Part shown: positions 27,171 to 43,664 of the stretch, one piece after another | Layout of the letters: the number at the start of each line of letters is the position of its first letter | Numbering within the stretch: the stretch's first letter is position 1 | Origin: Rhodopirellula sp. | GTDB lineage: Bacteria; Planctomycetota; Planctomycetia; Pirellulales; Pirellulaceae | Length of the DNA: 64,000 bases | Assembly (NCBI GenBank): GCA_002701385.1 | Contig: NZVD01000087.1 | Location: 113,077-177,076, forward strand | Direction of reading: 5' to 3' | Notes under the pieces: generated by a model | The model's input: the letters and a program-made list of their open reading frames with translations, nothing else | What the model was told of the DNA's origin: nothing | The model's database searches: none | Program-made: the position numbers and the translations under genes

Positions 27171-27299
27171 GTTTGAATTCACAATGAAATCAATACCCGT
27201 AAAACTCCTCCTATCCTTCCGTGGTTGCGTAATGTGAAACATGGCGGATTTGGTGGAAGAAGTAATACAAACTCTTTATTCACGGCGATGAGACTCGAA

Positions 27300-30200
27300 A
27301 TGAATTCAAAGCATTTCTTATTTAGTTTGGTATTTAGTGTTTTTTGGGGGCAGATCGTGTCGGGGCAGCAGGTTACAGAACCTGAGCGGCCTCCTGCCGC
27401 AGAAAGTCAGCAAGAAAGTGATGCAGACGTATTAAAAGAGCAGATCATTTACGTCCCCTACGAAAAACTTCCTCAGGTTTTTGAAAAACCGGCACGTGGA
27501 GTTTTTCTGCCGTACGATCAATTTCAGCAACTTTGGGATTCGGCTCGCAAGAATTCCAGCACCGAGGTGGATCAAGGGCCTCCGTTAAGGTCGCTAATAA
27601 CAAGTATTGAATCGTCAGCTGAAGTTCGTGGCGATGTCATGCAAGTTCGAGCTCAGTTGAAGATCCAGTTGTTAGGAGAAGGCTGGCACGAGATTCCGCT
27701 TCGGCTGGCAGATGCTGCTATTTCTTCTGCAAAGATTGGGGATGAGAATGCACGGATTGTCTTCCGTCCAGGGCAGGGATATTTTCTCCTTTTAGAGGAA
27801 ACTGAAACAGAGGCCAATAGCCTAACGTTGGATCTCACGTACGCCAAGACGTACGTCAAATCACCGGGGCTTAATCAAGTTGGCTTTCAGGCTCCCCAAG
27901 CGTCAATTAATCGCTGGAAAATTACCATCAAAGACCCAGGCGTGAAAGTAAATGTCCGTCCGTTAGTTGCGGCGACCGAAACACGCGATGGTGCAGATGC
28001 TGATAACGGGGAAACGCCTGCCCCTCAAGTTCCCACTGAAACAGTACTCATCGCCTTTTTCGGTTTAACGCCGCAGGTCCAGATTGACTGGACGCCTAAA
28101 AGTGAAGGAGCCTCAGGACTTACGGCACTTGCAACGGTACAGACTCGACAAAACGTTGTGATTGGCGAAGGGGCTCAACGAACTCAGGCGACACTGACCT
28201 ATGCGATTACTCGTAGTGAATTGACGGAACTTCAGATTCGCATACCTGCGAGACAAAAAATTGCGGGTGTTTTCGACGCGAATGTTCGCCGTTGGGATGT
28301 TGAAATCCAAGAGAACACTCAGGTGATCAAAGTCGAGTTATTCGAACCAGCCACCGCTACACAGAATATTAGCTTGGAATTGGAGCGATTTGATCTTGAA
28401 GTGGGGATGCAAAACGAAGCAGTCGAAGTCACCATTCCAGAAATTGAAGCCTTGGGGGTTTCAAGGCAGCAAGGGTTGGTCATGGTTCGAACCGAGGGTG
28501 ATTTGCGTGCGGACGTGACAATACGAACCGGACTCCTTCAGGTGGATTCTTCTCAGGTCGGTAATCAGCAAGGTGTCTGGGATTTTGTTTATCGATATGC
28601 CGCTCCACCCTACGAGTTAGTACTCAAGATCGAAAAACTGCAACCGCGTGTTTCTGCAGAAGAATATGTTGATATTCATGTGCTCGAGGACCAGTTGCGA
28701 GTCGATGTGACGACCTTGTTCAATGTAGAGCGAGCGGGAATTTTTCAGGTGGAATATAAAGTGCCTGAAGGATATACCGTGCGGGAAGTTCGCGGTGTTC
28801 AGGCTGGTAATTATCAGCCTTTGGTCGTCGAGAATCATCACATGGTGGAAAACGCTCCCGGTGTTTACCGAGTGAATTTTTCCAGAAAAGCGTTTGGTCT
28901 GGTTGGTCTTCGACTTGGCTTGGAAAAGCGACATAACGACGAGAACTTAGTTACCCCGACAGGTGTAGCGACAGAATACACATTAGAATTGGCTCGCGTT
29001 GTACCTTCTTCGGTAGAGTATGTTCGCGGTCGCGTCTTAATTCTTGCTCCGGAAGGCCTGCGATTAACACCTAAAGATACTTCCGGTGGTCAAAGTGTCG
29101 CGGTGAATGAAATTCAGGCCGAGCATATTGCTCCGTTATCCATCCGACAGAATGCTCGACCCGCCCAAGGATTTCGCTATGCGGAAGAGGTGTTTGCCCC
29201 AGTCTTTGATGTGGAACGTAGAAAACCGCACATTGAAGCAGGACAGCTAATCGTTGCAGATGTGGGCCAGGGGGAAGTCAAGTTTAACCTCTGCCTGCAT
29301 TATCAGATTCGCTACAGTGGAGTGAATACTTTCCGCGTCGATGTTCCGAAAGGACTGGCTGACCTGATTCGGAATGATTCGTCTAACTTCATTACTAAAA
29401 ACGTCATTGCTCCGGCTCCGGATGATATCGCAGATGGTTACGTTGCTTGGGAATTGAAGTCGAATCGTGAGTTACTAGGAGGCGTTCAGATCAATCTGTC
29501 ATGGAATGCGGAACTCAAGGGGTTGGACCAACATGGAGAAGATGTTGGGAATTCTGTAGATAGCGTGACGGTAGGCCGGCTAATGCCTCAGGGTGTAGAC
29601 CGTAGCTGGGGACAGATTGTCTTAAAGAAAGCCGAAAATCTGGATGTTACACCTACGGGTTTATTAGATGAAGCCGGGCAAGGCAATTTGCCAGTGAATT
29701 TGAGGCCCATCGACCCACAGCACGATATTCTACTTACCGGCGATACTGCCGGGGGGGCATTGGCTATGGAATTCCATGGCAATGATTGGGAATTGGGATT
29801 AAAAGTTCAGCGGTTTGAACTTAAAGAAGTGGAAAAGACGGCTGTCGAATTAGGATATGTCCGTGTGCAGATTGGTAAGGGAGGCAATGCGGTTGTTCGC
29901 GCAGTCTTCAGGATGCGATCGGTTGATCAGCGGATCGGTCTTACCATGCCACCTCATGCTGAATTGACGAACGACCCGCTGAGGATTAACGGAGCTTCGG
30001 TAGGTCTGGAGATTAACGATCGTGGCGTAGTCTCTAATGGTGAACAGAGCAATTACTTCATTCCTCTGACGACACAATCGTTAGGCGAAGTTTTTGTGAT
30101 CGAACTCGTGTATAACATTTCACAAGATTCAAATCTGATTTCAATTCCTCAATTCCCAGAAGTGGAAGCTGTAAATCAGATCTTTGTCGGTGTGGAGTTG

Positions 30201-31022
30201 CCAAAAGATTATGTCCTGCTGGACTATAGCGGCGATTGGGATGACCACTTGGAAGGTTCCTGGCTCGAACATCTTCAGACGCAACTGGTTGATCATGACC
30301 GTTACTTTGATGCACAACAGGTGATTAATGAAGTCGTCGCTGGCTATCCTGTATCAGATATCTATCCGTCGCACCATCAGCAGACGATCTATTTTTCAAC
30401 CATCAATCCTGGGGATTCCGTCCTAAATCTCACACTGAAAGAGAAGTCGCAGGTAAATCTGATGATCTTCATTGGGTTGGCTGTCGTAGGATTCGTTGGA
30501 ATTTTCCTCAATTTACGTAAGCAGGTAGCGTTGCTATTGATCGTAATAGCAGCATCTCTGGGGATAGCAATGATTAAACCTGTGCTGTCCAGTAGTGTTG
30601 AGATCAGTGGCATTCTAGTTGGTATGTCGATGATGGTGGTGGTCTGGGCAGTGAGGGACATTGGTCGTCCGTTTGTCGGCCTATCGAAGCTAATCGTTAA
30701 TCGCACGAAAGCGTCTGTGTCCAAAGAAGAAGCCGAAGTTGATGTGACGCCAGAGCCTGAATATTCTGAGGCTGAATTGGACGGTGAATCGGACCTAGAG
30801 GAGTCAGAACTTGCTGAACAAGCGGATAGTGGGGAATTAGATGGATTTCTTAGTCTCGAGGATGATCAAGGACAGGATTCATCTGAAGCTGATGGAATTG
30901 ACCTAGAGTCTCTTAATTTAGAGGAGCTTCCGGAGGATCCGGATGTCGGTCAGACGGAGGAAGACAGTAGTGATGAATCAGATTCCGATGAAAGTGATGC
31001 TAATTCGGGGGATGAAGAATAA
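27300..31022 (+). CDS. Giant exported membrane-anchored protein, unrecognised planctomycete family (module copy 1)
   Basis: I do not recognise a named family. The 1240-residue product has a signal peptide (KHFLFSLVFSVFWGQIVSG), then YVPYEKLPQVF...GVFLPYDQFQQLW, then about 950 residues of mostly beta-sandwich-like sequence. One segment reads LQIRIPARQKIAGVF...RRWDVE. Three hydrophobic segments follow near residues 1050-1135 (IFIGLAVVGFVGIFL; ALLLIVIAASLGIAMI; LVGMSMMVVVWAV). The last 99 residues (30723-31019) are very acidic, rich in Asp, Glu and Ser. Its VPY and RxW motifs recur twice in the next gene. The stop overlaps that gene's start (TAATG). I chose ATG 27300 because it opens the signal; ATG 27288 and TTG 27225 are also in frame. 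Confidence 0.75.
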   Translation: MNSKHFLFSLVFSVFWGQIVSGQQVTEPERPPAAESQQESDADVLKEQIIYVPYEKLPQVFEKPARGVFLPYDQFQQLWDSARKNSSTEVDQGPPLRSLITSIESSAEVRGDVMQVRAQLKIQLLGEGWHEIPLRLADAAISSAKIGDENARIVFRPGQGYFLLLEETETEANSLTLDLTYAKTYVKSPGLNQVGFQAPQASINRWKITIKDPGVKVNVRPLVAATETRDGADADNGETPAPQVPTETVLIAFFGLTPQVQIDWTPKSEGASGLTALATVQTRQNVVIGEGAQRTQATLTYAITRSELTELQIRIPARQKIAGVFDANVRRWDVEIQENTQVIKVELFEPATATQNISLELERFDLEVGMQNEAVEVTIPEIEALGVSRQQGLVMVRTEGDLRADVTIRTGLLQVDSSQVGNQQGVWDFVYRYAAPPYELVLKIEKLQPRVSAEEYVDIHVLEDQLRVDVTTLFNVERAGIFQVEYKVPEGYTVREVRGVQAGNYQPLVVENHHMVENAPGVYRVNFSRKAFGLVGLRLGLEKRHNDENLVTPTGVATEYTLELARVVPSSVEYVRGRVLILAPEGLRLTPKDTSGGQSVAVNEIQAEHIAPLSIRQNARPAQGFRYAEEVFAPVFDVERRKPHIEAGQLIVADVGQGEVKFNLCLHYQIRYSGVNTFRVDVPKGLADLIRNDSSNFITKNVIAPAPDDIADGYVAWELKSNRELLGGVQINLSWNAELKGLDQHGEDVGNSVDSVTVGRLMPQGVDRSWGQIVLKKAENLDVTPTGLLDEAGQGNLPVNLRPIDPQHDILLTGDTAGGALAMEFHGNDWELGLKVQRFELKEVEKTAVELGYVRVQIGKGGNAVVRAVFRMRSVDQRIGLTMPPHAELTNDPLRINGASVGLEINDRGVVSNGEQSNYFIPLTTQSLGEVFVIELVYNISQDSNLISIPQFPEVEAVNQIFVGVELPKDYVLLDYSGDWDDHLEGSWLEHLQTQLVDHDRYFDAQQVINEVVAGYPVSDIYPSHHQQTIYFSTINPGDSVLNLTLKEKSQVNLMIFIGLAVVGFVGIFLNLRKQVALLLIVIAASLGIAMIKPVLSSSVEISGILVGMSMMVVVWAVRDIGRPFVGLSKLIVNRTKASVSKEEAEVDVTPEPEYSEAELDGESDLEESELAEQADSGELDGFLSLEDDQGQDSSEADGIDLESLNLEELPEDPDVGQTEEDSSDESDSDESDANSGDEE

Positions 31023-34000
31023 TGAATTCGTCTAATCGTTTTACATCGTTACTGTTTCTTGGGATGGTCGGACTCGTCTGCAGCCTGCTTGGCACCTCAC
31101 TCGAAGCTCAGGTGAAGTCGCGGGAAATCTATGTTCCCTTTAAGGACTTGAAATCCGTTTTAGCGGGGCCGATCGAGCGAATCTATTTGCCGCGTAGTGA
31201 ATATGAGGACCTATTGAAGAAAGCGGATATTAAGCCGGGGGATACACCTCCTCAAAACACAGTGCTTGGTAAAGCTCGGTATGACGTTCGGTTGCACGAA
31301 GACTTTGCCACGATCAGAGCGACCTTGGAGGTGGAGTCATTGGCAGAAGGCCTACAATTACTTCCGTTGCGATTCGTAGGCGTTTCCGTCTTGAGTGCGC
31401 AAATCGCCGGAGTGGCAGCTCCGGTAGTACGCGCCTCACCGCAGCAGGTGAATCTGTTGGTGGAAGGGAAGGGAAAGGCGACAGTGATTATGGAATTGGC
31501 AACGCCCGTGCGACACTCTGCTGCCGAACAATCGTTCGCATTAGAGTTGCCCCACGCGCCGAACGAATCCATTGGTATGGTCGTGCCTGGCAATATAGAG
31601 ATTAAATCCGGTGCTAGTGTTGTTTCACGATCGATTGATGACCAGGCCAATGAAACTTCCTTTGAGCTGTTGCCCACGCCCGGCCCTTTGTCGGTCACGA
31701 TGTCACTCAACAATAAACGGTTGCAAACCGAACGTCAGACGATTGCTCGCAGCGTGATTGTAGATGAGTTGAATGAATCGCTAGAAAGGATTCATGCAAC
31801 TTATTCGATGGAAATCGTACAAGGAGCAGCGGCGGAATTTATCTATGAAATTCCGGTTGGTTTTGAAGTGACTAATGTGGATACGCCGGACTTGGCTAGA
31901 TGGTCAGTTAGCCAAGTCGATGGAGCCAATCTACTTAAGGTGGAATTTCGATCGCCACAAACGTCGGCTGTGACCGTGAAAATAACCGCCATAGAAACTT
32001 CCCCTTCATGGGAAGAGTGGAGTTTTCCAATGATTAAGGCCAGAGATGTGGAAGCATCAACAGGAGTGGTTGGGATTCTTGCTGAACGGCGTTTGGCAGT
32101 GGGGTCTCTGCAAGCTGCGGGAGCCATCCCGCTAAATAATGCTGTGCTTGAAAATGCCTTGCCGCAGTCCATTTTTATCGTTGAGCCTGGTGCACCCCCT
32201 CTGCAAATTCTCGCAACTTACTATGTGCCTCAGGAAGACTATTCGGTAGTTGCGAAGGTACTGCAACCTGAGAGTCAATTGAATGTGCAAACTAATACGG
32301 TATTAACGTTGCTTCGCGATCGTCATCAGGCTGCGGTGGATTTTTATCTGTATCCGGCTTTGGATGATCTCTTTGGATTTGATGTGCAGGCTCCGGAAGG
32401 TTGGAACGTAACAGCCATTGTTGATGAGAATCAAAATACGTTGAAGTACCATGAGACAATTGACGAGCAGGGTGTGCGACGACTGCACGTGAAATTTCCG
32501 GGACGCCGAGCGTTTGGGCAGTTACACCGTGTGACATTGATTTCAGACCGAGTTCCGGATGGTTGGCTGGAAAACTGGGACGAATATACCTTAGAGACAC
32601 CAGCTTTTGTGGTGGAAGATACCTACCGTAGTGCCGGAGTGATTGGCATTAGGGCTATTGAACAGTATCAGGATGTGTTTGAAATTCGAGCAGATATGGT
32701 GCAGGGAGCTTTTCCTTTATCGGCTTCGGATCGGACACGAGTATCGTTGTCCAGTCCTGTGGCACTTGCATATCAATACGATTCGACGGACTTTGCCGTG
32801 TCGACCATGGTCCGAAAGGTTCCCGCTCTTTACGCATCGAGACTAGCTTCCTTTTTTGATGTTCAACAAGGAGTCCACAAATCGTATCACGAGATCGCGA
32901 TTAACATACAACGATCTCAGATCGAGGAAGTCGTATTGGCGTTGCCGGCTGATTCCACACCGGAAAACATCACGATCAACGGTTTAGCTGGTACTCAGGT
33001 AAAGCAATATAGCTCAGAGGATGGTGGTCCTCTGCGTAAATGGACGATTCGGCTCAGTACGCCTGCGTTTAGTAATGTTACGCTCGGTGTTCAATACGAC
33101 AATCAAGTGGAAAATGACGAAGCCCAACTAACTCCGGCATTTCCAGAAGTAGTTGGAGCAGGTTATCAATCAGGCGTATTCTCCATCGAAGCATCTCCAG
33201 AGTTGGAACTGACTGTAGATGAGCCTGGACTCAAGCCGGTGGATGCCGGTGAATTGGCGGTGAACGGGTACGTGGTTGGTAAGCATCGAGTTGCAGCCTT
33301 CCGCTATACCGGAGAGTCTCCATCGATCAATGTAGGTGTCGAATACCCGGAACTTCGTGCCATCCCTGCTGTTCTGGTGAATCGAGCTGAATTGCTGACT
33401 TATGTTGCTTCACGCGGAGTTTATCAAACGGTCGCTAGATATTCACTTCTTACTAAGGCAGACTACGTGCGAGTCGTATTGCCAGGCGACGCTCGACTGT
33501 GGAGTGTTGTGGTTGATGATGTAGTTACGGTGAGACCTCAGAAGACCCCACGAGATGATGGGTTTTTGGTGGACTTATCTACTGCCGGCGAGGATGTTGG
33601 CAACCTTCGGGATCTACGTTTGATCTATGAAGAATCCCAGGGAAGTACAGGCGACTTTAGTCTGAATGCTCCGCAATTGTTCGAGCATGGGCGTAATCAG
33701 GATTCAAATACTGCTCCGCTCGTGCAACCGGCCCGAGTGAAGTGGCAAATGATGGTACCGGCAAGCTATCGATTAAGTTTGAAAAATGCAGATGTCATGA
33801 AGCAGACGAATACTCCCGTCCGTGTAACGCCTCAGGCGGCTTACCTTGGCGGTGGCCTGTTTTTGGCAACAGGTGGTCTGCAGTTCGGTGAATCAGCTCC
33901 AACATCGAGCGTGTTCGATAGTCAGATTGCGTCGGCTTATCCCGACACGGCCGATGCAGATTATGCGATGCCAATGGATGGCACGGAAGAATTGGCAGAG

Positions 34001-37000
34001 TTTGAGGCACCTACCGGAGCAATGGCTCCACCGATTAACTCAGCCGAACCGAAATCGGAATCCGTACCCAAATCCACGGCTCCACCAGGTCCGTTTGCAA
34101 ATAATGAAACATTGGAGTTGGATTTGGCCGAGCGAGCCAAGGCAGCGTCTCCGACAGATGAAGTCTTCGATTCACCTGCGAATGCCCCGCAACAACCGCA
34201 ACCGGAGGTTCTTGCGGATGATATGGAAAAGGTTCAGGAGGAAATTCAGGTTGATGGTGAATTGGCTGGCGAATCGCAAGGATTGATCGGACGTCAGTCG
34301 GAATTGGGTTGGGCATTGGAGGGACGTAATAGTCTGGATATTAATCTGGTTTCACGCGTTGACTCCAATGACGCGTATAAACTGAGTTCGGATTACTTGC
34401 TCTATGAATTCGGAAACCTTGGTGGCGTTGCTGCTGTTGAAGGGCAAGTAGTGCGAAAGAGCTTCGGCATAGTTTTGGGATGGGTTGTTGCACTCGTGAT
34501 CTTAGCTTTGGGGGCTCTTATCGTCCGAAAAGATGCGAAAGCCAAACGACGGTTTCTTGTCCTAGTACTCTTTTTAGCGATTGTGATTTCCGCTTTACCG
34601 CAATTTGTAGCTTATCGTGAGGTCGCCGAAATGATGTTTGCCTCGGTTATCGTTCTCATGGTTGGGTACATTGTTTTCCATATGCTACGCCCCGGGATGT
34701 CTTGGTGTTGTGAGGCAGGGGTTAGTAAGCTGATTAAATTCAGTGGAGGCAAGGGCGCCCGAGCAGGTTTGGTATTGTTACCCCTGCTGACTGGATTGCA
34801 AAACAGTATTCACGCACAGCAGATAGATGGTGTGATACCTGTCGATGTCCCTAAGGATGCGGTCGTTGTGCCGTATGACCCTTCAGCATTGCCTGTACAT
34901 AGAAGTGATGATCAACAGTTGTTGATTCCGTTGAAGCGATATACCGAACTATTTAAGCGAGCCTATCCCGGTTTAACTCTGGAACACGAGTACTTGCCCG
35001 TAAAATACGCCTTTAACGGCGTCGAGTATTCCACCTCACTTTATGAAGACAACAGTCTTCTGATTGAAGGAGTGATAGGAATTGATGTGTTCACAGATCA
35101 GGAATTGATCATCGGGTTACCGTTAGGTGATTTGGTAATTGAATACGCTACACTGGACGAAAAGCCGGCCCAGATGAAAGTGGGAGGACCGCAGGGTCCG
35201 CTGGCCCCCAATGTGGCTCCGCAAGCACAAGTTAAACAACAAGCCGAACAGCAGCAGGTCGTTCAGCCCGCACCGGTTCCGGTGGCGGCCTCTCATCAGC
35301 TCTTGATCTCTGGTAAAGGTCAGCACGAACTACGTCTGGGATTACGCATGTCGATTGCCCGTCAGGGTGGATGGCGAATCGCTAGTGGACAATTGCCGAT
35401 CGGTGTGAGCGGCATGATGAATCTCATGGTGCTTGAAGCAAATACTGAACTGCGTTGGAATAATCATCTCGGGCGAAGTGAATATAGAACGAGTCAGGCC
35501 AATGAAGAAGTCGTTTCCTCTTTAGGAATCAACGGTTCGTTTGATTTTCGTTGGCGGCCTGTGATTCAGGAGAGTCTGACCGATCGTGATCTAACCAGTC
35601 AGTCCGAATTGATTATCGATGTTCAGGAAGATGGTGTTTATGCCGACTGGTTTGTAAATCTGAGCTTTCGTAATAGCACCAGAGATTTGTTCCGCTTGCG
35701 AGTCCCGACAGGAATGAGAGTCGAAGCGGTGAAGGGGGCGAATATCCGCAGCTGGGAAGTCGTGAATGATGAGGCGGGAAATCAGGATATTAGTATTGAA
35801 ATGCTCGAAGCGGCTCAGAATACAGCTCAGCTTCGAGTTAGTCTGGTTCGCTATCGAGCACTACCTACAGGAAAGTCAGACCAATTTAACATTCCCGTTG
35901 TATCCGTTCCGGATGCTGTGTCCCAGAAAGGCACGATATTAATTCGTCGAAGTCCCATGCTGAATGTTGTCATAGATGCAGTTGAGGGGGTATCTCGTTT
36001 GGACGTGGATGAATTTCCGGGTTTACATCGAGTGAATGGGAACAATCAACCGGAAGCTCAGGTAATCACTCGAGAAAATCCACTGGGGATTCAGTCGTTA
36101 CTTGCTTACCAGTTTTCAGGGAATGCTTATGTTTTGACCCTGAGCGCGACAGAAGTGGCCTCGAGGTCTTCAGCCAATTTGAAGTCACTTGTGCGAGTAT
36201 CACCTCAGGAAATCACTTTGGAGTCGATGATCCGAGTATCTGATAGTCGCAGGCCGGTGCATCAGGTGCAATTGGTAGTACCCCAAGATCTGGTCATTCG
36301 ACAATTAAGTGCACCTGGTTTAGTCGAGTGGGCAGAAGATGAATACGCTGCCATCATTGGTAAGGCAAAATTGGTCACCGTGCTATTAGGGCAGGGGATA
36401 CAGGGCGGTTTTAACGTGATTCTGGAAGGGAAGTTGGAACGCAAATTAGAGAATATGACGACGACCGTTCCTTATCTGGCTGTGCTCGGTGTCCAGTCAC
36501 AGTATGGTGAAACCGTATTGCTATCGGACCCGTCGTTTGATGTGGAGTTGTTAGATGTTCAGCAGGGTGAATCTGTTGCCATGGCATCCATGTTTGGGTG
36601 GTTGCGATCTAATCAACGTCCTTTGGCTCGAACGGCGTTGAAATTCCGCGGCCCTAATTACGCCGCGAAATTCCAGCTAATACCGCGCGACGTCAGTGTT
36701 AATTGCCGTACGTTTACCAATGTGCATGTAACCGACCGCGCTGTCGAAGAGACGATTTTGCTGGAATACACCGTGTCGAATGCCGGTGAGCGTAATTTTT
36801 CATTCCGATTACCAAAGTACATGAAGGGGAAATCGATTATTTCCGCTCAATACGTGCAACGGGTGGTCTGGGAAGACGAAGCGGAGGATTCAGATTATGT
36901 GACCGTCCGTTTGTTGCTTGAAGATGAAGTTCTCAATGAATATCGAGTCTTGATCCAAATGGATCGTCAGTCCGGCGAAAACACCAGGCCTCCAATTCCT

Positions 37001-39061
37001 GTCATCCTTGGGGAAAATGTGGGAGTGTTGGGGCAATTTGTCTCTCTGGAAAGCTCAGGGGATCAGATTAGTGTTGAAGATTTGGATCAAGATGGCAATC
37101 AACTTGTAGGGTTTGAACGATTGAATCGTCAGTCTGTTCAGTGGCGAGATGTCACGGCGGTATTGGGAGATCGAATTAGCGAAGCGTTTGTCGTGACTGC
37201 ACAGGATCCTACTGCAGTCGATATTCTGTACAGCGTGACGAGCAATAAAGTCCTGAATCGGGATGCAGCGAAGATAAGGCTCGCCACTACCTATGTAGCA
37301 GTTGATTTCGCAGGGACGTACCGAGCTAAACTTGAGCTGCTTGTGGACAATCAAACCGAGCAGTTTCTTGAAGCAACGTTACCGGACGGTGCACAGCTAT
37401 GGGCTATTTCGGTGGCGGGAGACCCTGTCAAACCAATCAAAGGAGTGTCGGATCGGGATTTGAAAGTTCCGTTGGTTAAAACAGAGGATGGGGAATTGTC
37501 CTATCTCGTTCAGATTCATTATGCGGGAAATGTCGGTGGACAACTCGAACAATATGGAAAGCTAGAGACGCTTCCTGTTATAGGAACAAAAAATATCGTT
37601 GCTGACGGTAGTACATTTGTAAAACTTTATCTGCCTAAGGATCGACGTTGGTTTGGATTCGATGGAGCCGGTGAGTTGATCGCCAGAACGGACGAAAAAA
37701 TGAGCTCCGTGCTTAAGTCCAAACAGAGCTTAGTTATCAATCAGGAAATTGGTGAAAAGCTACGGCGTGCAAATCAATCTTCCAACCCCTATGAGAAAAT
37801 CCGTCTGTTTAATAGCTTAAAGTCCGAAACGGATGTGAATAACTATTCGACGCAAACGGAGGTTGAATCGCGGAACGGGCAGCAAATTCAAGAGTTGAAT
37901 AAGCAAGTGGATGAGTTGGTACAACAACCAGAAGAAGATATGGGGGAGGTAGAGCAACTCTTCGACAACCGTAAACAACTCAATCAACGTTTTCTGGAGC
38001 AGACCAACGACATTACCAATAACGCAGTTAATCAGCTGGGGAATAATTTTGATTTGCCCGTTGAAAATGCCACCAGTGAGGATGAAAAAGCGGCTGCCGA
38101 GTCACAATTTAAAAAGGGGTGGTTTGAAGGTAATGGGCTCATCCGGGAATCCCGGAAAGAAGAAGACGGTAGTGCAAAGCGTCTTTACAAAGGTAATACG
38201 CAGAACTTCAAGACTCCCGCAAGCAAGCCATCCTCCGGGCAAGGTGGTCAGAGCCAGGATCGAGGCGAGCAGCAACAACGCTTGAATCGGAATGAATCCA
38301 GCCAACAACGAATGCAACAACAGTTGCGTCAGTATCAGATGCAACAAAAGCAATCCTTGGATAGCCGTAATCCTGAGGATAAAATTCGTTCTTTCTTTGG
38401 TAAACCACAAGCCACGGATCTGGTAGACCCAATGGCTGAGGGAGGCATGGACTTAGGCGGCTATATGGCCGGCGGCGTTGGTGGTGGAATGGCTGGTATG
38501 AATCGAAGAGGCCAGGCTCCCTCAGGAGGCATGGGCGGTGGTGGTACTGCTATGGGAGGTTTTGGAGGTGAATTAGCTCAGAACGGTTCTGGCGGAAGGG
38601 CCCCCGAATTTATCGATGGTGTTTCAGCACTAGATGGAAAACGTGATCAGGCGGGCCTAATGTCTCACGCTCAGGCTACTGGTTTTGCAAGTATCGCAGG
38701 TTTTGAGTTTGATGAAGCCAGTCTGAATAACGAATTCGATCAGTTTGAGTTGGAGTTTATTGCTGCGACCAAAGAATACGATTTTTCAGCCCAATACGTC
38801 AGTCATTCGCTGATCGAGACGTTTCTGCGAGTTGGAGTTGGGCTGGGCGGTATTTTGGTGATATTGATAGGCAGTTGGGTAATCCGCGTGGCCTCACGTA
38901 GTACCTGGTTGGTTGGATTCGTGGCCGTTTGTTTCCTCCCAATAAGCTTGTTTATGATTTTGCGTTGGGTATTTCCAGTGTTAGGAGTCATTGTTTTGTT
39001 GGCTTCACTCAGCTGGTTGTTAAAACTTCGCTTTTCCCGCTCGACGCTTAAGGCTGCTTAA
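31022..39061 (+). CDS. 2679-residue membrane protein made of two fused modules of the same unrecognised family
   Basis: Module A follows a signal peptide (FTSLLFLGMVGLVCSLLG) with REIYVPFKDLKSVL...RIYLPRSEYEDLL. It ends in a Pro/Glu-rich linker and membrane helices near residues 1150-1235. A signal-peptide-like segment (AGLVLLPLLTGLQNSIHAQQ, about 1245-1265; nt 34756-34820) then introduces module B, which opens DAVVVPYDPSALP...LLIPLKRYTELF. Both modules carry beta-rich repeats with an RxW motif (LARWSV, about 289; IRSWEV, about 1577). After about 2260 come a helical region with Asn/Gln, a Gln-rich stretch (RMQQQLRQYQMQQ), a Gly/Met-rich stretch near 2480-2520, and three C-terminal membrane helices. 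I see no catalytic motif. Translation is coupled to the upstream gene by TAATG. Confidence 0.75.
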   Translation: MNSSNRFTSLLFLGMVGLVCSLLGTSLEAQVKSREIYVPFKDLKSVLAGPIERIYLPRSEYEDLLKKADIKPGDTPPQNTVLGKARYDVRLHEDFATIRATLEVESLAEGLQLLPLRFVGVSVLSAQIAGVAAPVVRASPQQVNLLVEGKGKATVIMELATPVRHSAAEQSFALELPHAPNESIGMVVPGNIEIKSGASVVSRSIDDQANETSFELLPTPGPLSVTMSLNNKRLQTERQTIARSVIVDELNESLERIHATYSMEIVQGAAAEFIYEIPVGFEVTNVDTPDLARWSVSQVDGANLLKVEFRSPQTSAVTVKITAIETSPSWEEWSFPMIKARDVEASTGVVGILAERRLAVGSLQAAGAIPLNNAVLENALPQSIFIVEPGAPPLQILATYYVPQEDYSVVAKVLQPESQLNVQTNTVLTLLRDRHQAAVDFYLYPALDDLFGFDVQAPEGWNVTAIVDENQNTLKYHETIDEQGVRRLHVKFPGRRAFGQLHRVTLISDRVPDGWLENWDEYTLETPAFVVEDTYRSAGVIGIRAIEQYQDVFEIRADMVQGAFPLSASDRTRVSLSSPVALAYQYDSTDFAVSTMVRKVPALYASRLASFFDVQQGVHKSYHEIAINIQRSQIEEVVLALPADSTPENITINGLAGTQVKQYSSEDGGPLRKWTIRLSTPAFSNVTLGVQYDNQVENDEAQLTPAFPEVVGAGYQSGVFSIEASPELELTVDEPGLKPVDAGELAVNGYVVGKHRVAAFRYTGESPSINVGVEYPELRAIPAVLVNRAELLTYVASRGVYQTVARYSLLTKADYVRVVLPGDARLWSVVVDDVVTVRPQKTPRDDGFLVDLSTAGEDVGNLRDLRLIYEESQGSTGDFSLNAPQLFEHGRNQDSNTAPLVQPARVKWQMMVPASYRLSLKNADVMKQTNTPVRVTPQAAYLGGGLFLATGGLQFGESAPTSSVFDSQIASAYPDTADADYAMPMDGTEELAEFEAPTGAMAPPINSAEPKSESVPKSTAPPGPFANNETLELDLAERAKAASPTDEVFDSPANAPQQPQPEVLADDMEKVQEEIQVDGELAGESQGLIGRQSELGWALEGRNSLDINLVSRVDSNDAYKLSSDYLLYEFGNLGGVAAVEGQVVRKSFGIVLGWVVALVILALGALIVRKDAKAKRRFLVLVLFLAIVISALPQFVAYREVAEMMFASVIVLMVGYIVFHMLRPGMSWCCEAGVSKLIKFSGGKGARAGLVLLPLLTGLQNSIHAQQIDGVIPVDVPKDAVVVPYDPSALPVHRSDDQQLLIPLKRYTELFKRAYPGLTLEHEYLPVKYAFNGVEYSTSLYEDNSLLIEGVIGIDVFTDQELIIGLPLGDLVIEYATLDEKPAQMKVGGPQGPLAPNVAPQAQVKQQAEQQQVVQPAPVPVAASHQLLISGKGQHELRLGLRMSIARQGGWRIASGQLPIGVSGMMNLMVLEANTELRWNNHLGRSEYRTSQANEEVVSSLGINGSFDFRWRPVIQESLTDRDLTSQSELIIDVQEDGVYADWFVNLSFRNSTRDLFRLRVPTGMRVEAVKGANIRSWEVVNDEAGNQDISIEMLEAAQNTAQLRVSLVRYRALPTGKSDQFNIPVVSVPDAVSQKGTILIRRSPMLNVVIDAVEGVSRLDVDEFPGLHRVNGNNQPEAQVITRENPLGIQSLLAYQFSGNAYVLTLSATEVASRSSANLKSLVRVSPQEITLESMIRVSDSRRPVHQVQLVVPQDLVIRQLSAPGLVEWAEDEYAAIIGKAKLVTVLLGQGIQGGFNVILEGKLERKLENMTTTVPYLAVLGVQSQYGETVLLSDPSFDVELLDVQQGESVAMASMFGWLRSNQRPLARTALKFRGPNYAAKFQLIPRDVSVNCRTFTNVHVTDRAVEETILLEYTVSNAGERNFSFRLPKYMKGKSIISAQYVQRVVWEDEAEDSDYVTVRLLLEDEVLNEYRVLIQMDRQSGENTRPPIPVILGENVGVLGQFVSLESSGDQISVEDLDQDGNQLVGFERLNRQSVQWRDVTAVLGDRISEAFVVTAQDPTAVDILYSVTSNKVLNRDAAKIRLATTYVAVDFAGTYRAKLELLVDNQTEQFLEATLPDGAQLWAISVAGDPVKPIKGVSDRDLKVPLVKTEDGELSYLVQIHYAGNVGGQLEQYGKLETLPVIGTKNIVADGSTFVKLYLPKDRRWFGFDGAGELIARTDEKMSSVLKSKQSLVINQEIGEKLRRANQSSNPYEKIRLFNSLKSETDVNNYSTQTEVESRNGQQIQELNKQVDELVQQPEEDMGEVEQLFDNRKQLNQRFLEQTNDITNNAVNQLGNNFDLPVENATSEDEKAAAESQFKKGWFEGNGLIRESRKEEDGSAKRLYKGNTQNFKTPASKPSSGQGGQSQDRGEQQQRLNRNESSQQRMQQQLRQYQMQQKQSLDSRNPEDKIRSFFGKPQATDLVDPMAEGGMDLGGYMAGGVGGGMAGMNRRGQAPSGGMGGGGTAMGGFGGELAQNGSGGRAPEFIDGVSALDGKRDQAGLMSHAQATGFASIAGFEFDEASLNNEFDQFELEFIAATKEYDFSAQYVSHSLIETFLRVGVGLGGILVILIGSWVIRVASRSTWLVGFVAVCFLPISLFMILRWVFPVLGVIVLLASLSWLLKLRFSRSTLKAA

Positions 39062-39157
39062 AGACTTCTCTGCGGGCGTGCGAGATCTGCCTTTATGTGA
39101 AAGTCTGATTTCATTATCTTGTAGAGGAAATAAGAATTCTCCTATGGCAGAAGAAGT

Positions 39158-40678
39158 ATGAGTGACTCTCCTCTAGAATCTGACAAACCGACGCCTGAGG
39201 CTGCGAAGGTCGCTGATTTGTCTGATTACAGCGTTGTGTCCCGGCGTCACCGCCCGGACATGCTGACCGTGCTTTTGGTTTGTGCTGCCGGAGTTCTTGC
39301 AGTGGTGTGGGGTTTGATGGGGATTGCGCCGTCGCTGACTTCAGAGATTCGAGTATTTCAAGCCCATCCGAGGCACCGTTGGACCGCGGTGGATCTTGAA
39401 ATCAAAAAATACATTCCTGCGCAATTACGGGATTTAATCGGTGCAACGCCTGGTGAATTAGAGGCTATTGACGATCCACATGAAGTACGAATAACAAATG
39501 TTCAGGTAGTTGATGTCGATGGCGATGGTATGAATGACGTGCTTGTTTGTAATGCGTCACAGAATACTGTCATTGCTTATACGTATGAAGGTAAAAAAAC
39601 GATTGAACCTGACTTTGGTGAGGATGTTTCCGTGGAGGAATTGCAGGCTCAAATGGCAAAGTCTGCTGAGACGAATGGCATGGAGTACTTGTGGCAGGAG
39701 ACTTTGATTGGCGAATCAATGGTCGCACCGGCACATGCAACCGTCGTTGATATTAATGGGGACGGCAAGTTGGATGTCGTCGTCTCTGTGTTAGGTAATA
39801 TCATGCCATCGGATGAACTGATTGGTGAAGTGTTGTTGTTTCTTAAAACTGAAGAGGGTTACGACCGCCACGTGTTGTTATCGGACGTGCGCCGGGTTGC
39901 AGATGTACAGCCCGGGGACTTTGATGGCGACGGCGACCTGGATTTGGCAGTAGCAGTCTTCGGTTACGCTCGAGGGGGCGTGCGGCTTCTGGAAAATTTG
40001 GGCGATCTTGAATTTCGAGATTCGTCGCTGTTGGATCGGCCGGGTGTGATCCATGTACCGGTACATGACTATGATCTGGATGGAGATCTGGATATTGGAG
40101 CTATTGTCACACAGGATGAGGAAGAGGTGTGGGCATTAGAGAATGACGGCTCAGGCAATTTCAGCCGGCGTATTCTTTATGAGACAGATAATTATGATGT
40201 TGGTGGGGGAGGTTTGGTTGCAGCCGATCTCGATCAAGACGGGAAGATGGACTTTTTGATGAGCCAGGGGGATAACTTAGAATTTGGACACGGTTGGCCG
40301 ATGCCTTACCACGGCTGCGTTTGGTTACGCAATAAGGGTGACTGGACGTTTGAAGCAGAGCTAATTGGTAAATTAGGAGGGACCTATGCCGCCTCTCCAT
40401 CCGATGTGGATGCCGATGGGGATTTAGACGTAGTGTTGGTTAGTATGTCCAACGACTATGCTAACCCTCAAAATCCAAGCGTAATTTGGGTAGAAAACGA
40501 AGACAATCAGTTTAATAAGCACCATCTGATAGCTCGTCAGCCAGTGGAGCTCATTACAGTCGATTGTGGTGATGTGGATGGCGATGGGATAGATGATATC
40601 GTCACAGGTCAGTTTAGAATCCCCCTTAGTGTCGTGCCGGATCATCCCGTCCGGGTATGGTTCAAGGAGGAATTCTAA
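39158..40678 (+). CDS. Membrane-anchored FG-GAP/VCBS-type beta-propeller protein
   Basis: The 506-residue product has a charged N-terminus, one membrane helix at about residues 35-58 (MLTVLLVCAAGVLAVVWGL) and an outer domain. That domain contains seven calcium-binding loops of the FG-GAP/VCBS type: DVDGDGMND, DINGDGKLD, DFDGDGDLD, DLDGDLD, DLDQDGKMD, DVDADGDLD and DVDGDGIDD. This spacing fits a seven- or eight-bladed propeller, a fold used for protein or ligand binding. It begins 96 nt after the giant gene and its TAA overlaps the next ATG (TAATG), placing it in the same cluster. Confidence 0.85.
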   Translation: MSDSPLESDKPTPEAAKVADLSDYSVVSRRHRPDMLTVLLVCAAGVLAVVWGLMGIAPSLTSEIRVFQAHPRHRWTAVDLEIKKYIPAQLRDLIGATPGELEAIDDPHEVRITNVQVVDVDGDGMNDVLVCNASQNTVIAYTYEGKKTIEPDFGEDVSVEELQAQMAKSAETNGMEYLWQETLIGESMVAPAHATVVDINGDGKLDVVVSVLGNIMPSDELIGEVLLFLKTEEGYDRHVLLSDVRRVADVQPGDFDGDGDLDLAVAVFGYARGGVRLLENLGDLEFRDSSLLDRPGVIHVPVHDYDLDGDLDIGAIVTQDEEEVWALENDGSGNFSRRILYETDNYDVGGGGLVAADLDQDGKMDFLMSQGDNLEFGHGWPMPYHGCVWLRNKGDWTFEAELIGKLGGTYAASPSDVDADGDLDVVLVSMSNDYANPQNPSVIWVENEDNQFNKHHLIARQPVELITVDCGDVDGDGIDDIVTGQFRIPLSVVPDHPVRVWFKEEF

Positions 40679-42048
40679 TGCGCTGGAATCAAATGGTTCT
40701 GACCGTGATTATTCTTGGATTAGTTGTACAAATTGGTTTGCGATACCAGGAAAACGGTGGTATGCAAGCTCCGATCGTATCCCGGGTACACAAACTGGAG
40801 ACAGGTTTTCGGGATGCCGTCAGAGAATTGGAGGATTCACACGACGTAACGGATGTTAAAGCCTGGGTGGAATTGGGGGAAATCTACTCAACGTTTGCTT
40901 TAATGCCCGAAGCTGAATATTGTTTTCGGCGAGCTCTGAAAGTTGGGGACTTGGATCTTGAACAGCAATTCAAATTCGGGATCTGTCTTAGTCGGCGAGG
41001 CAAGCTGGAAAAGGCGATTGCAATTCTGAAACCCGTTGGCGCTTCAGGCCATTCACTAGCCTCTCACGCCAATTTGCAGATAGGCCTGGATTATTTGCGA
41101 CTAGACGATCGAACGAATGCGGAGATTTTTCTCCGATTGACCGAAAGCGATGAAATTGCAGACTTTGCCTTGTCCCGGATTCTCATTCGTGATGGCAGAG
41201 CCGAAGAAGCTGTTGCGATTCTTGGAAGATTGATCGAACGTAGTCCGAATTCAATGCGTGCACATCAAATGCAGGGATGGGCTTACGAGGCATTAGGTGA
41301 CGCGGAGGAGGCACGGAACTGCTTCGATCGCTCCATGCATACGTCGGAGATGATTACGATTCACCCCATCTCGCGGGATTGGGATGAAAAAACGGTTAAT
41401 AAGATGGGAGCAGCAGTCCCGTTGACTAAAAGCACGAATGCGTTGGAGGTAGGCGATACGAGTACGGCGATCGTCGAAATTGAAAAGTCATTTGAATTGT
41501 TAGACCCGCTATGGCGACCAGCGTACGCCATTCAAGCTGCTTTGTCTTATCTTAAAGCAGGCCAGCCTGACACAGCGCTAACGTACCTGAAACGATGGTT
41601 GATTCGTGATGGTGAATCGGCGTATTTGTGGGAAATTGCCGGAGATTGCTTTTTAGATAAAGAGGAGTTAGACCGAGCAGAGGCTGCCTGGAAGCGTGGG
41701 CAATTGGTGCGAGCAAGCAAGACGGTACAGGCTAATGCAGAGTGTTGTCGTAAGCTATCAGAACTTTACCAAACACAGGGCAGGACAGCAGAAGCCGAGT
41801 TGTACCGTGGTTATCACTTGTATGAAAGCGGGCGACTCCAATGGCGTGACAATAAGATTCGCGCGGCGAATAAGCAATTGAGTGAAGCCGTTACTATTCT
41901 AAAAGATGACCCTCACGTTTGGTTTGCATTAGCGGAGGCTCAGAGAGCACTAAGTGATCGAACATCTGCCAAAGAATCCTATTTGAAATGTCTAGCGTTA
42001 GAGCCTAATCATGGACGTGCTATCGTTGGCTTGGAGTTGGTCCAATGA
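40678..42048 (+). CDS. Membrane-anchored TPR-repeat protein
   Basis: The 456-residue product starts with a signal anchor (MRWNQMVLTVIILGLVVQIGL) and consists of helical repeats that match TPR: AWVELGEIYSTFALMPEAEYCFRRAL, KFGICLSRRGKLEKAIAIL, HQMQGWAYEALGDAEEARNCFDRSM, LSYLKAGQPDTALTYLKRWL, and the C-terminal WFALAEAQRALSDRTSAKESYLKCLALEP. It is probably a protein-binding scaffold outside the cytoplasm. AAGGAGG (40663-40669), 8 nt before the ATG, is the strongest ribosome site seen in the cluster. Its stop overlaps the protease start (ATGA). Confidence 0.85.
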   Translation: MRWNQMVLTVIILGLVVQIGLRYQENGGMQAPIVSRVHKLETGFRDAVRELEDSHDVTDVKAWVELGEIYSTFALMPEAEYCFRRALKVGDLDLEQQFKFGICLSRRGKLEKAIAILKPVGASGHSLASHANLQIGLDYLRLDDRTNAEIFLRLTESDEIADFALSRILIRDGRAEEAVAILGRLIERSPNSMRAHQMQGWAYEALGDAEEARNCFDRSMHTSEMITIHPISRDWDEKTVNKMGAAVPLTKSTNALEVGDTSTAIVEIEKSFELLDPLWRPAYAIQAALSYLKAGQPDTALTYLKRWLIRDGESAYLWEIAGDCFLDKEELDRAEAAWKRGQLVRASKTVQANAECCRKLSELYQTQGRTAEAELYRGYHLYESGRLQWRDNKIRAANKQLSEAVTILKDDPHVWFALAEAQRALSDRTSAKESYLKCLALEPNHGRAIVGLELVQ

Positions 42049-43664
42049 ATCACAGGCCTCGGGTACGGCAACGCCGGATGTTGGTTGTGGTGGTTGGCCT
42101 GCTTGTCCATCTTTGGTGTTTGCCGCAGCAGGTTACGGCTAAACTCGTGCTTTGTGTTTGTGCCGAGGAATTTGAGTCGGCTTGGCAGCCGTGGATCAAA
42201 TATCGGAATCAACAGGGATATGTCGTCAAAATACTTCGCCCGAAGGGCTCTGCTGCTGGAATTCGAGAGTCGTTGAAACGGCTGCAGCAGTCACACGAGA
42301 TAGCCGCCATTGTGCTCGTTGGTGATGCCCCTTCTTTTTCCAAAGGTAAGTTTGGTGAGAGGACTGACTGGCACATACCAACGTTTTATTCACAAGCGAA
42401 AGTGAATGTGCTGTTCGGTTCAGAGCCCGAAGTCGCCTCAGATTTGCCATATGGAGACCTCAATGGAGATGGCATTATTGATGTTCCGGTTGGCAGGATT
42501 CCTGTTGTGGACGCTCAGCAATTAGCTGGTTACGTTAAGCGTGTGCAGGAGTATGAAAAGGAGTATCCATCGGCTCCGGATAAACGTGACATCCATTTTG
42601 TGGCAGGTGTCGGTGGGTTTGGTCCGGCTTTAGATGGTGTTTTGACATCAGTCACTCGCAAGTTTATAAGTCAGGGAATTCCGGGTTCGTTTCGCGTGAC
42701 CATGACGCAAGCGAGTTGGCAAAGTCCGTTTTGCCCAGATCCATTTGCATTCGGAAAGCACACGATTAATCGGTTGAATCAGGGAGGGCTGTTTTGGGTC
42801 TATATGGGACATGGCCTACGTGATCAATTGGATCGTGTCGTGGTTCCCGGCGAGCAGCCTGTGTCTATTCTTCGGCGGCAAAATCTGGAAGGCGTTGACG
42901 TTCAAGGCATGCCTCCCGTTTGTGTGTTTTTGGCCTGTTATGTGGGCGCTTTTGATTCAAATGATCCGTGTATTGGTGAACAGTTAATGTTGCTTGAACG
43001 GGGACCAATTGCAGTTTACGCAGCCAGTCGTGTGTCGATGCCGTATGCGATGAGTGTTATGGGCGATGGCATGTTGCGTCAATCATTCCGCTTGCGAGAA
43101 GAGTTGCTTGGAAATGTCATTACCAATGCAAAGCGAAGCTTGGTAGTGCCTGCTCAGGCAGACCGTACAGCGAATCGAATGTTGCTGGATAATCTTGCAG
43201 GTACTTTAAGCCCGGCGCCTCATTTATTGAAGGAAGAACGTGCAGAACATGCTTTGATGTTTAACTTGCTCGGGGATCCTCTTCTACGACTGAATTATCC
43301 TCGTGGAGTGAAATTGACGTCTCCTGTAACAGCTCAGAACGGAAGTGTTATACAAGTTGGTTTTCAAGCGCCAGTTGCCGGAAAGGCCATTCTTGAATTG
43401 GCCGCTGAGCGTGGTGTCCAGAGATTTGTGCCGATGCAACGTCAGGAGTTCGATCGCACGCTGGTGGCTAAATATACAGACGAATACATCCAAGCCAACG
43501 ATGCTGTGTGGCATTCAGAAGAGCGAGCGGTAAATGCAGCAGAAGCCGTTTCGGTAAAAATGAAGGTCGAAAATATAAGCCCCGGTTTTCAGACGATTCG
43601 GCTCTATCTACAGGGCGATCAGCATGTTTATATTGGCTCAAAACGTATTTACGTTAGCAACTAG
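42045..43664 (+). CDS. Exported C25 (gingipain-type) cysteine protease
   Basis: The 539-residue product has a basic leader and signal (MLVVVVGLLVHLWCLPQQVTA). A caspase-like C25 fold follows: KYRNQQGYVVKIL, AAIVLVGDAP, LPYGDLNGDGIIDVPVGRIPV, the catalytic His256 in WVYMGHG and Cys298 in VFLACYVGAFD. The dyad is intact. The C-terminal 120 residues form a beta-sandwich-like domain (VTAQNGSVIQVGFQAPVAGKA). There is no long N-terminal propeptide and no recognisable type IX C-terminal sorting domain. It is the last gene of the five-gene cluster; its targets may be the giant neighbours, but that is inference. Confidence 0.87.
   Translation: MNHRPRVRQRRMLVVVVGLLVHLWCLPQQVTAKLVLCVCAEEFESAWQPWIKYRNQQGYVVKILRPKGSAAGIRESLKRLQQSHEIAAIVLVGDAPSFSKGKFGERTDWHIPTFYSQAKVNVLFGSEPEVASDLPYGDLNGDGIIDVPVGRIPVVDAQQLAGYVKRVQEYEKEYPSAPDKRDIHFVAGVGGFGPALDGVLTSVTRKFISQGIPGSFRVTMTQASWQSPFCPDPFAFGKHTINRLNQGGLFWVYMGHGLRDQLDRVVVPGEQPVSILRRQNLEGVDVQGMPPVCVFLACYVGAFDSNDPCIGEQLMLLERGPIAVYAASRVSMPYAMSVMGDGMLRQSFRLREELLGNVITNAKRSLVVPAQADRTANRMLLDNLAGTLSPAPHLLKEERAEHALMFNLLGDPLLRLNYPRGVKLTSPVTAQNGSVIQVGFQAPVAGKAILELAAERGVQRFVPMQRQEFDRTLVAKYTDEYIQANDAVWHSEERAVNAAEAVSVKMKVENISPGFQTIRLYLQGDQHVYIGSKRIYVSN

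Follow-up and report, generated by a model that had tools for sequence, protein, structure and literature searches.

Giant membrane-anchored proteins of three related modules form a phylum-wide gene pair in planctomycetes and adjoin an independent C25 peptidase gene set in Rhodopirellula

We analyzed a stretch of 64,000 nucleotides from a Rhodopirellula genome (hereafter, the window). It harbors a cluster of five same-strand genes encoding two giant proteins (giant1 and giant2), an FG-GAP beta-propeller, a TPR protein and a C25 peptidase (Table 1). A re-reading of the coordinates and junctions agreed with a preliminary description of the window, which had reported three overlaps and a single 96-nt gap. 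Giant1/giant2 and FG-GAP/TPR overlap through TAATG and TPR/C25 through ATGA, and the gap (39062-39157) separates giant2 from the FG-GAP gene. In congeners, the spacing of the longest ORFs was -1 or -4 nt for giant1/giant2, -22 to +2 nt for FG-GAP/TPR, -4 to -61 nt for TPR/C25, and 51 to 181 nt for giant2/FG-GAP (six congener contigs measured). The cluster is composed of two tightly coupled parts, giant1-giant2 (set 1) and FG-GAP-TPR-C25 (set 2), with a gap between them. A scan for promoters and terminators found sites no commoner than in shuffled sequences, and therefore no operon boundary was drawn from it.

Table 1. Features of the five-gene cluster, numbered by position in the window
Feature	Position	Strand	Remarks
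giant1 (module A)	27300..31022	+	signal peptide, beta-rich ectodomain, three membrane helices, acidic C-terminal tail; alternative ATG at 27288 possible
giant1, three C-terminal hydrophobic segments	30453..30653	+	by hydropathy; helices in the model; acidic tail after
giant2	31022..39061	+	2679 aa; start inside TAATG overlap with giant1
giant2, module B ectodomain (residues 28-1150)	31103..34471	+	
giant2, module B three membrane segments (residues 1150-1219)	34469..34678	+	by hydropathy
giant2, putative internal signal peptide (residues 1236-1265; KLIKFSGGKGARAGLVLLPLLTGLQNSIHA)	34727..34816	+	predicted cleavage A↓QQ
giant2, module C ectodomain (residues 1266-2605)	34817..38836	+	helical, Gly-rich C-terminal part
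giant2, module C three membrane segments (residues 2606-2667)	38837..39022	+	by hydropathy
FG-GAP beta-propeller gene	39158..40678	+	separate unit from the giants
TPR protein gene	40678..42048	+	
C25 peptidase gene	42045..43664	+	
C25 catalytic His256 and Cys298	codons 42810 and 42936	+	exported C25 peptidase

Profile comparisons revealed that the three modules match one another over 845-871 aligned columns, with E-values of 5.9e-54 (A versus B), 2.8e-56 (A versus C) and 1.7e-51 (B versus C). By these profiles, one module is represented by three paralogues over its full length, namely giant1 and each half of giant2. In each module, hydropathy analysis places three hydrophobic segments after an ectodomain that spans some 1,000 residues or more. 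The preliminary description had assigned the giants to an unrecognised family, and neither giant1 nor giant2 indeed had a match in Pfam or NCBIfam. It had overlooked that they belong to a single family and that giant2 consists of two giant1-like modules in tandem. Among 22 diverse giants, Pfam and NCBIfam gave scattered matches only, with no significant match common to the members. The giant profile had no match among PDB sequences, and no description of the family was found in the literature on planctomycete giants, C25 proteins and vWA/ECF systems. The one clear domain among the 22 was a LysM domain (2e-8) in a giant1 relative (L282:8193-12287), which suggests that this protein contacts peptidoglycan.

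AF2 models of module A and module C (residues 1262-2400) had pLDDT values of 83.5 and 78.1, respectively; their pTM was 0.48-0.51, and the packing of the domains is therefore uncertain. The modelled ectodomains of A and C shared one architecture, a string of beta sandwiches whose strands are long and paired, and the module C model had an extra helical, Gly-rich end compared with A. No enzyme domain was visible, which favours a putative scaffold role. The top usable fold matches were ribophorin I and aminopeptidase N-terminal domains, with TM-scores below 0.5. Ribophorin I/Ost1 of the oligosaccharyltransferase and the N-terminal beta domains of aminopeptidases resemble module A in having beta sandwiches followed by a membrane helix. 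However, human ribophorin I reached a TM-score to target of only 0.37-0.45 against module A, and ribophorin/Ost1 chains 0.22-0.28 against module C, in both cases without a sequence match. With whole models, a ribophorin I/M1 N-terminal fold did not exceed a TM-score of 0.5 (maximum 0.45 for A and 0.28 for C), and the likeness does not imply an oligosaccharyltransferase function for the giants. Matches in a viral fold library mostly reflected long strings of domains and were set aside as without value.

The same models bear on the idea that the giants are cell-surface adhesins instead of periplasmic scaffolds. Adhesins often consist of strings of beta sandwiches, and integrin alpha chains were among the top fold matches. 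However, the integrin TM-scores of both models were near 0.15, which is not meaningful, and these matches were rejected as generic beta-sandwich strings. Moreover, each module has helical membrane segments at its C-terminal end, and such segments are expected in the inner membrane. An adhesin role is the least probable of the readings considered here.

The giants are a separate, phylum-wide pair. Giant2 directly followed giant1 in 69 of 76 named contigs, and the other 7 ran off the contig. We counted 78 distinct small-then-large tandem pairs, and the ORF spacing within the pair was 20 nt or less in 76 of 89 cases. Strain SV_7m_r, a cultured planctomycete, is among the carriers of the pair (L222). 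The family was present in 96 of the 294 genomes sampled over the phylum and, using a sensitive profile, in 43 of 60 relatives.

The genome of the window carries a second giant pair at the start of the same contig, outside the window (L293, G000:C38:1-10694). This type ii pair encodes proteins of 1185 aa (truncated at the contig start) and 2377 aa. In a FastTree tree with several long branches, type ii formed one clade of 21 rows (support 100) that included the sister genus and was separate from the type i pair found in the window. A sensitive search likewise detected a type ii pair in the sister genus. In relatives, this pair is located downstream of an inositol-monophosphatase-like gene, and a conserved gene of 220-316 aa was observed there on the opposite strand (L297). 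In several genomes of family f21, a conserved gene pair was found upstream of the giants (L253-L257), encoding a 222-249 aa protein without a Pfam match and a protein of about 511 aa with an HTTM domain.

At the B/C junction, most giant2 proteins have a basic stretch that leads into a hydrophobic core and a small-x-Ala site, as a rule with Q or E next. This pattern of an internal signal peptide was seen across the phylum, and the A↓QQ site was invariant in the window and six congeners. The signal peptide test was a home-made motif count, in which a strict signal-peptidase motif followed the internal core in 43 of 71 giant2 proteins. The corresponding rates were 72-79% for N-terminal signal peptides and 9-12% for ordinary transmembrane segments, and shuffled tails reached 31%, so composition explains part of the 43/71. 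A second, looser score placed a site in 64 of 82 giant2 proteins and is less specific, as it also did so in 74 of 304 control windows. It missed the giant2 of the window itself, probably because of the hydrophobic start of the mature part. By a crude count, three membrane segments preceded the internal signal peptide in only 44 of 64 cases. The three helices of module B would return the chain to the cytoplasm, and this topology fits the positive n-region of the internal signal peptide. In one genome (G120, L266), A, B and C are encoded by three genes, and B and C (L266:7334-17887) each have their own signal peptide. The simplest reading of these sequences is that giant2 is a fusion that retained the signal peptide of its second half, yields B and C in a 1:1 ratio and is probably split.

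Alternatively, giant2 may stay uncut, with the second hydrophobic stretch acting as a signal anchor; it would then be a single polytopic chain carrying two beta domains in the periplasm. The fusion persists in nearly the whole family and the signal-peptidase motif is imperfect in some members, both of which are consistent with this. However, the site is far closer to cleaved N-terminal signal peptides than to ordinary transmembrane segments, and the separate-gene version in G120 also argues against it. We regard an uncut giant2 as unlikely.

An arrangement of this kind occurs in FbcH, the cytochrome b/c1 precursor of Bradyrhizobium, in which an internal signal peptide links a polytopic membrane part with a second exported part. 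FbcH is the precursor of an enzyme, and its cleavage has been shown by experiment. By motif, giant2 has the FbcH-like arrangement of an internal signal peptide with a predicted cleavage site between two exported parts, its first part likewise being polytopic. Giant2 differs from FbcH in having no sequence relation to it and in that its cleavage is predicted, whereas that of FbcH is experimental. The internal signal peptide makes a sharp prediction, namely a free module C beginning with QQIDG. If the split is true, giant2 would be unusually large for a bacterial precursor that signal peptidase splits.

The proteins of set 2 proved to be largely as first described. The propeller has FG-GAP repeats (PF13517, 1.4e-32) with exactly seven DxDxDG loops and is membrane-anchored by hydropathy, which agrees with the membrane propeller with seven calcium loops of the preliminary description. 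Pfam confirmed the TPR family proposed for the fourth gene product, which has an N-terminal hydrophobic segment. The fifth gene product belongs to family C25 (PF01364 at 1.6e-48; 166.3 bits against a cut-off of 23). The His/Cys dyad, which had been called intact, is invariant (H256 and C298) in 24 orthologues and aligned with the His and Cys region of RgpB (gingipain R). The protein thus has the C25 fold and the dyad in common with gingipain/C25 peptidases and PorU. Unlike gingipain and PorU, it is short and mostly single-copy, and it lies far under the cut-off of the PorU model: the NCBIfam model of the PorU/type IX sortase (NF033707) gave 48.4 bits against a cut-off of 420.

We then considered whether the five genes belong together. 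The preliminary description had proposed a single protease-controlled envelope complex, in which the giants are processed by the C25 peptidase, with the propeller and TPR proteins holding the complex together. In congeners, the order SGNH - giant1 - giant2 - FG-GAP - TPR - C25 - esterase - enolase holds to the limits of the contigs, even where the identity of giant2 is as low as 42%. The same-strand cluster is therefore conserved across the genus, and its coupled start and stop codons are also in keeping with a common complex. However, the neighbouring SGNH, esterase and enolase genes, which nothing evident links to the giants, are conserved to an equal degree in these congeners, so that synteny within the genus is weak evidence of function.

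Comparisons beyond the genus separated the two sets. At the loci examined outside the genus, giants never adjoined a C25, FG-GAP or TPR gene, and the nearest case was a C25 gene about 10 kb from the giants (G028). FG-GAP and TPR genes were near giants in only six of the 76 named contigs, all from congeners, and they adjoin each other as a pair of their own in five other genera. The C25 gene was present in 50 of 60 relatives, usually once per genome, at unrelated positions and with unrelated neighbours; outside the genus, no C25 neighbour was conserved except the esterase in the sister genus. The C25 orthologues in the class sample came mainly from the order of the window. Family f21, of the same class and possessing giants, had no C25 orthologue in this sample at E 1e-30. 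The sister genus (G012) has FG-GAP-TPR and, across a contig break, C25-esterase in place without a type i giant pair. The symporter-SGNH segment adjoining its cluster is inverted (L127), where the type i giants are missing.

Set 2 is thus an independent set that neighbours the giants in this genus only. Co-location in related genomes, on which the proposal of a five-gene complex had been staked, fails beyond the genus, and such a complex is very unlikely given that the giants occur apart from set 2 and, in f21, without C25. From the envelope assembly first proposed, what stands is that the giants look like envelope scaffolds; the protease, propeller and TPR protein as parts of one machine with them do not. 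The giants may still interact with set 2 in a genus-specific manner, since the order of the five genes holds throughout the genus. The protease account is corrected accordingly, co-location in one genus having been misleading.

A distant branch of the giant family has a different neighbourhood. At 12 loci (L271, L272, L274-L279, L282 and L305-L307), in genomes across the phylum that include three from the family of the window, a gene for a vWA/YfbK_C protein is immediately followed by a giant-family gene, and in 9 of the 12 an ECF sigma gene lies just upstream of the vWA/YfbK_C gene. The vWA/YfbK_C protein is anti-sigma-like, with a zf-HC2 finger in several loci, and the giant relatives that follow it are about 2.1-2.4 kaa. 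In this branch, the giant gene takes third place in planctomycete operons of ECF sigma and vWA-YfbK anti-sigma genes. In G068, the order is sigma - YfbK - 1364 aa - 2305 aa, so that both giants are present. These loci raise the possibility that the giants serve a signalling system as its envelope-facing arm, and that those in the lineage of the window may still sense the state of the envelope for a regulator encoded elsewhere. However, unlike these operons, the type i pair has no adjoining sigma or anti-sigma gene in the window or at the loci examined, and the two branches are far apart in sequence. For the pair of the window, we consider a signalling arm rather improbable.

Our preferred explanation, which we hold with about even confidence, is that of three modules anchored in the inner membrane, with a split B-C precursor, forming a periplasmic scaffold, and set 2 independent of them. 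The products of set 1 would be three paralogous modules (A, B and C), in each of which C-terminal helices, as a rule three, fix an all-beta ectodomain to the inner membrane. Module A would be made alone, and a single precursor of 2679 residues would contain B and C. The helices of B would bring the precursor chain back to the cytoplasm, and the second signal peptide would send C through Sec. Signal peptidase I probably cuts at A↓QQ, so that B and C would arise in fixed, equal amounts (1:1). The three modules most likely then come together at the inner membrane as a periplasmic scaffold, which would act in envelope architecture or sensing. Set 2 (FG-GAP, TPR and C25) would be an independent unit that is a neighbour in this genus.

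More broadly, and at somewhat less than even confidence, the family may constitute an undescribed phylum-wide envelope machine, with three giant modules, a precursor split by signal peptidase and one branch wired to ECF sigma/vWA signalling. Planctomycetes have an unusual envelope with an enlarged periplasm, of which few structural parts are known. Occurring in about one third of the genomes sampled from the phylum, the giant family is a strong candidate for one of these parts.
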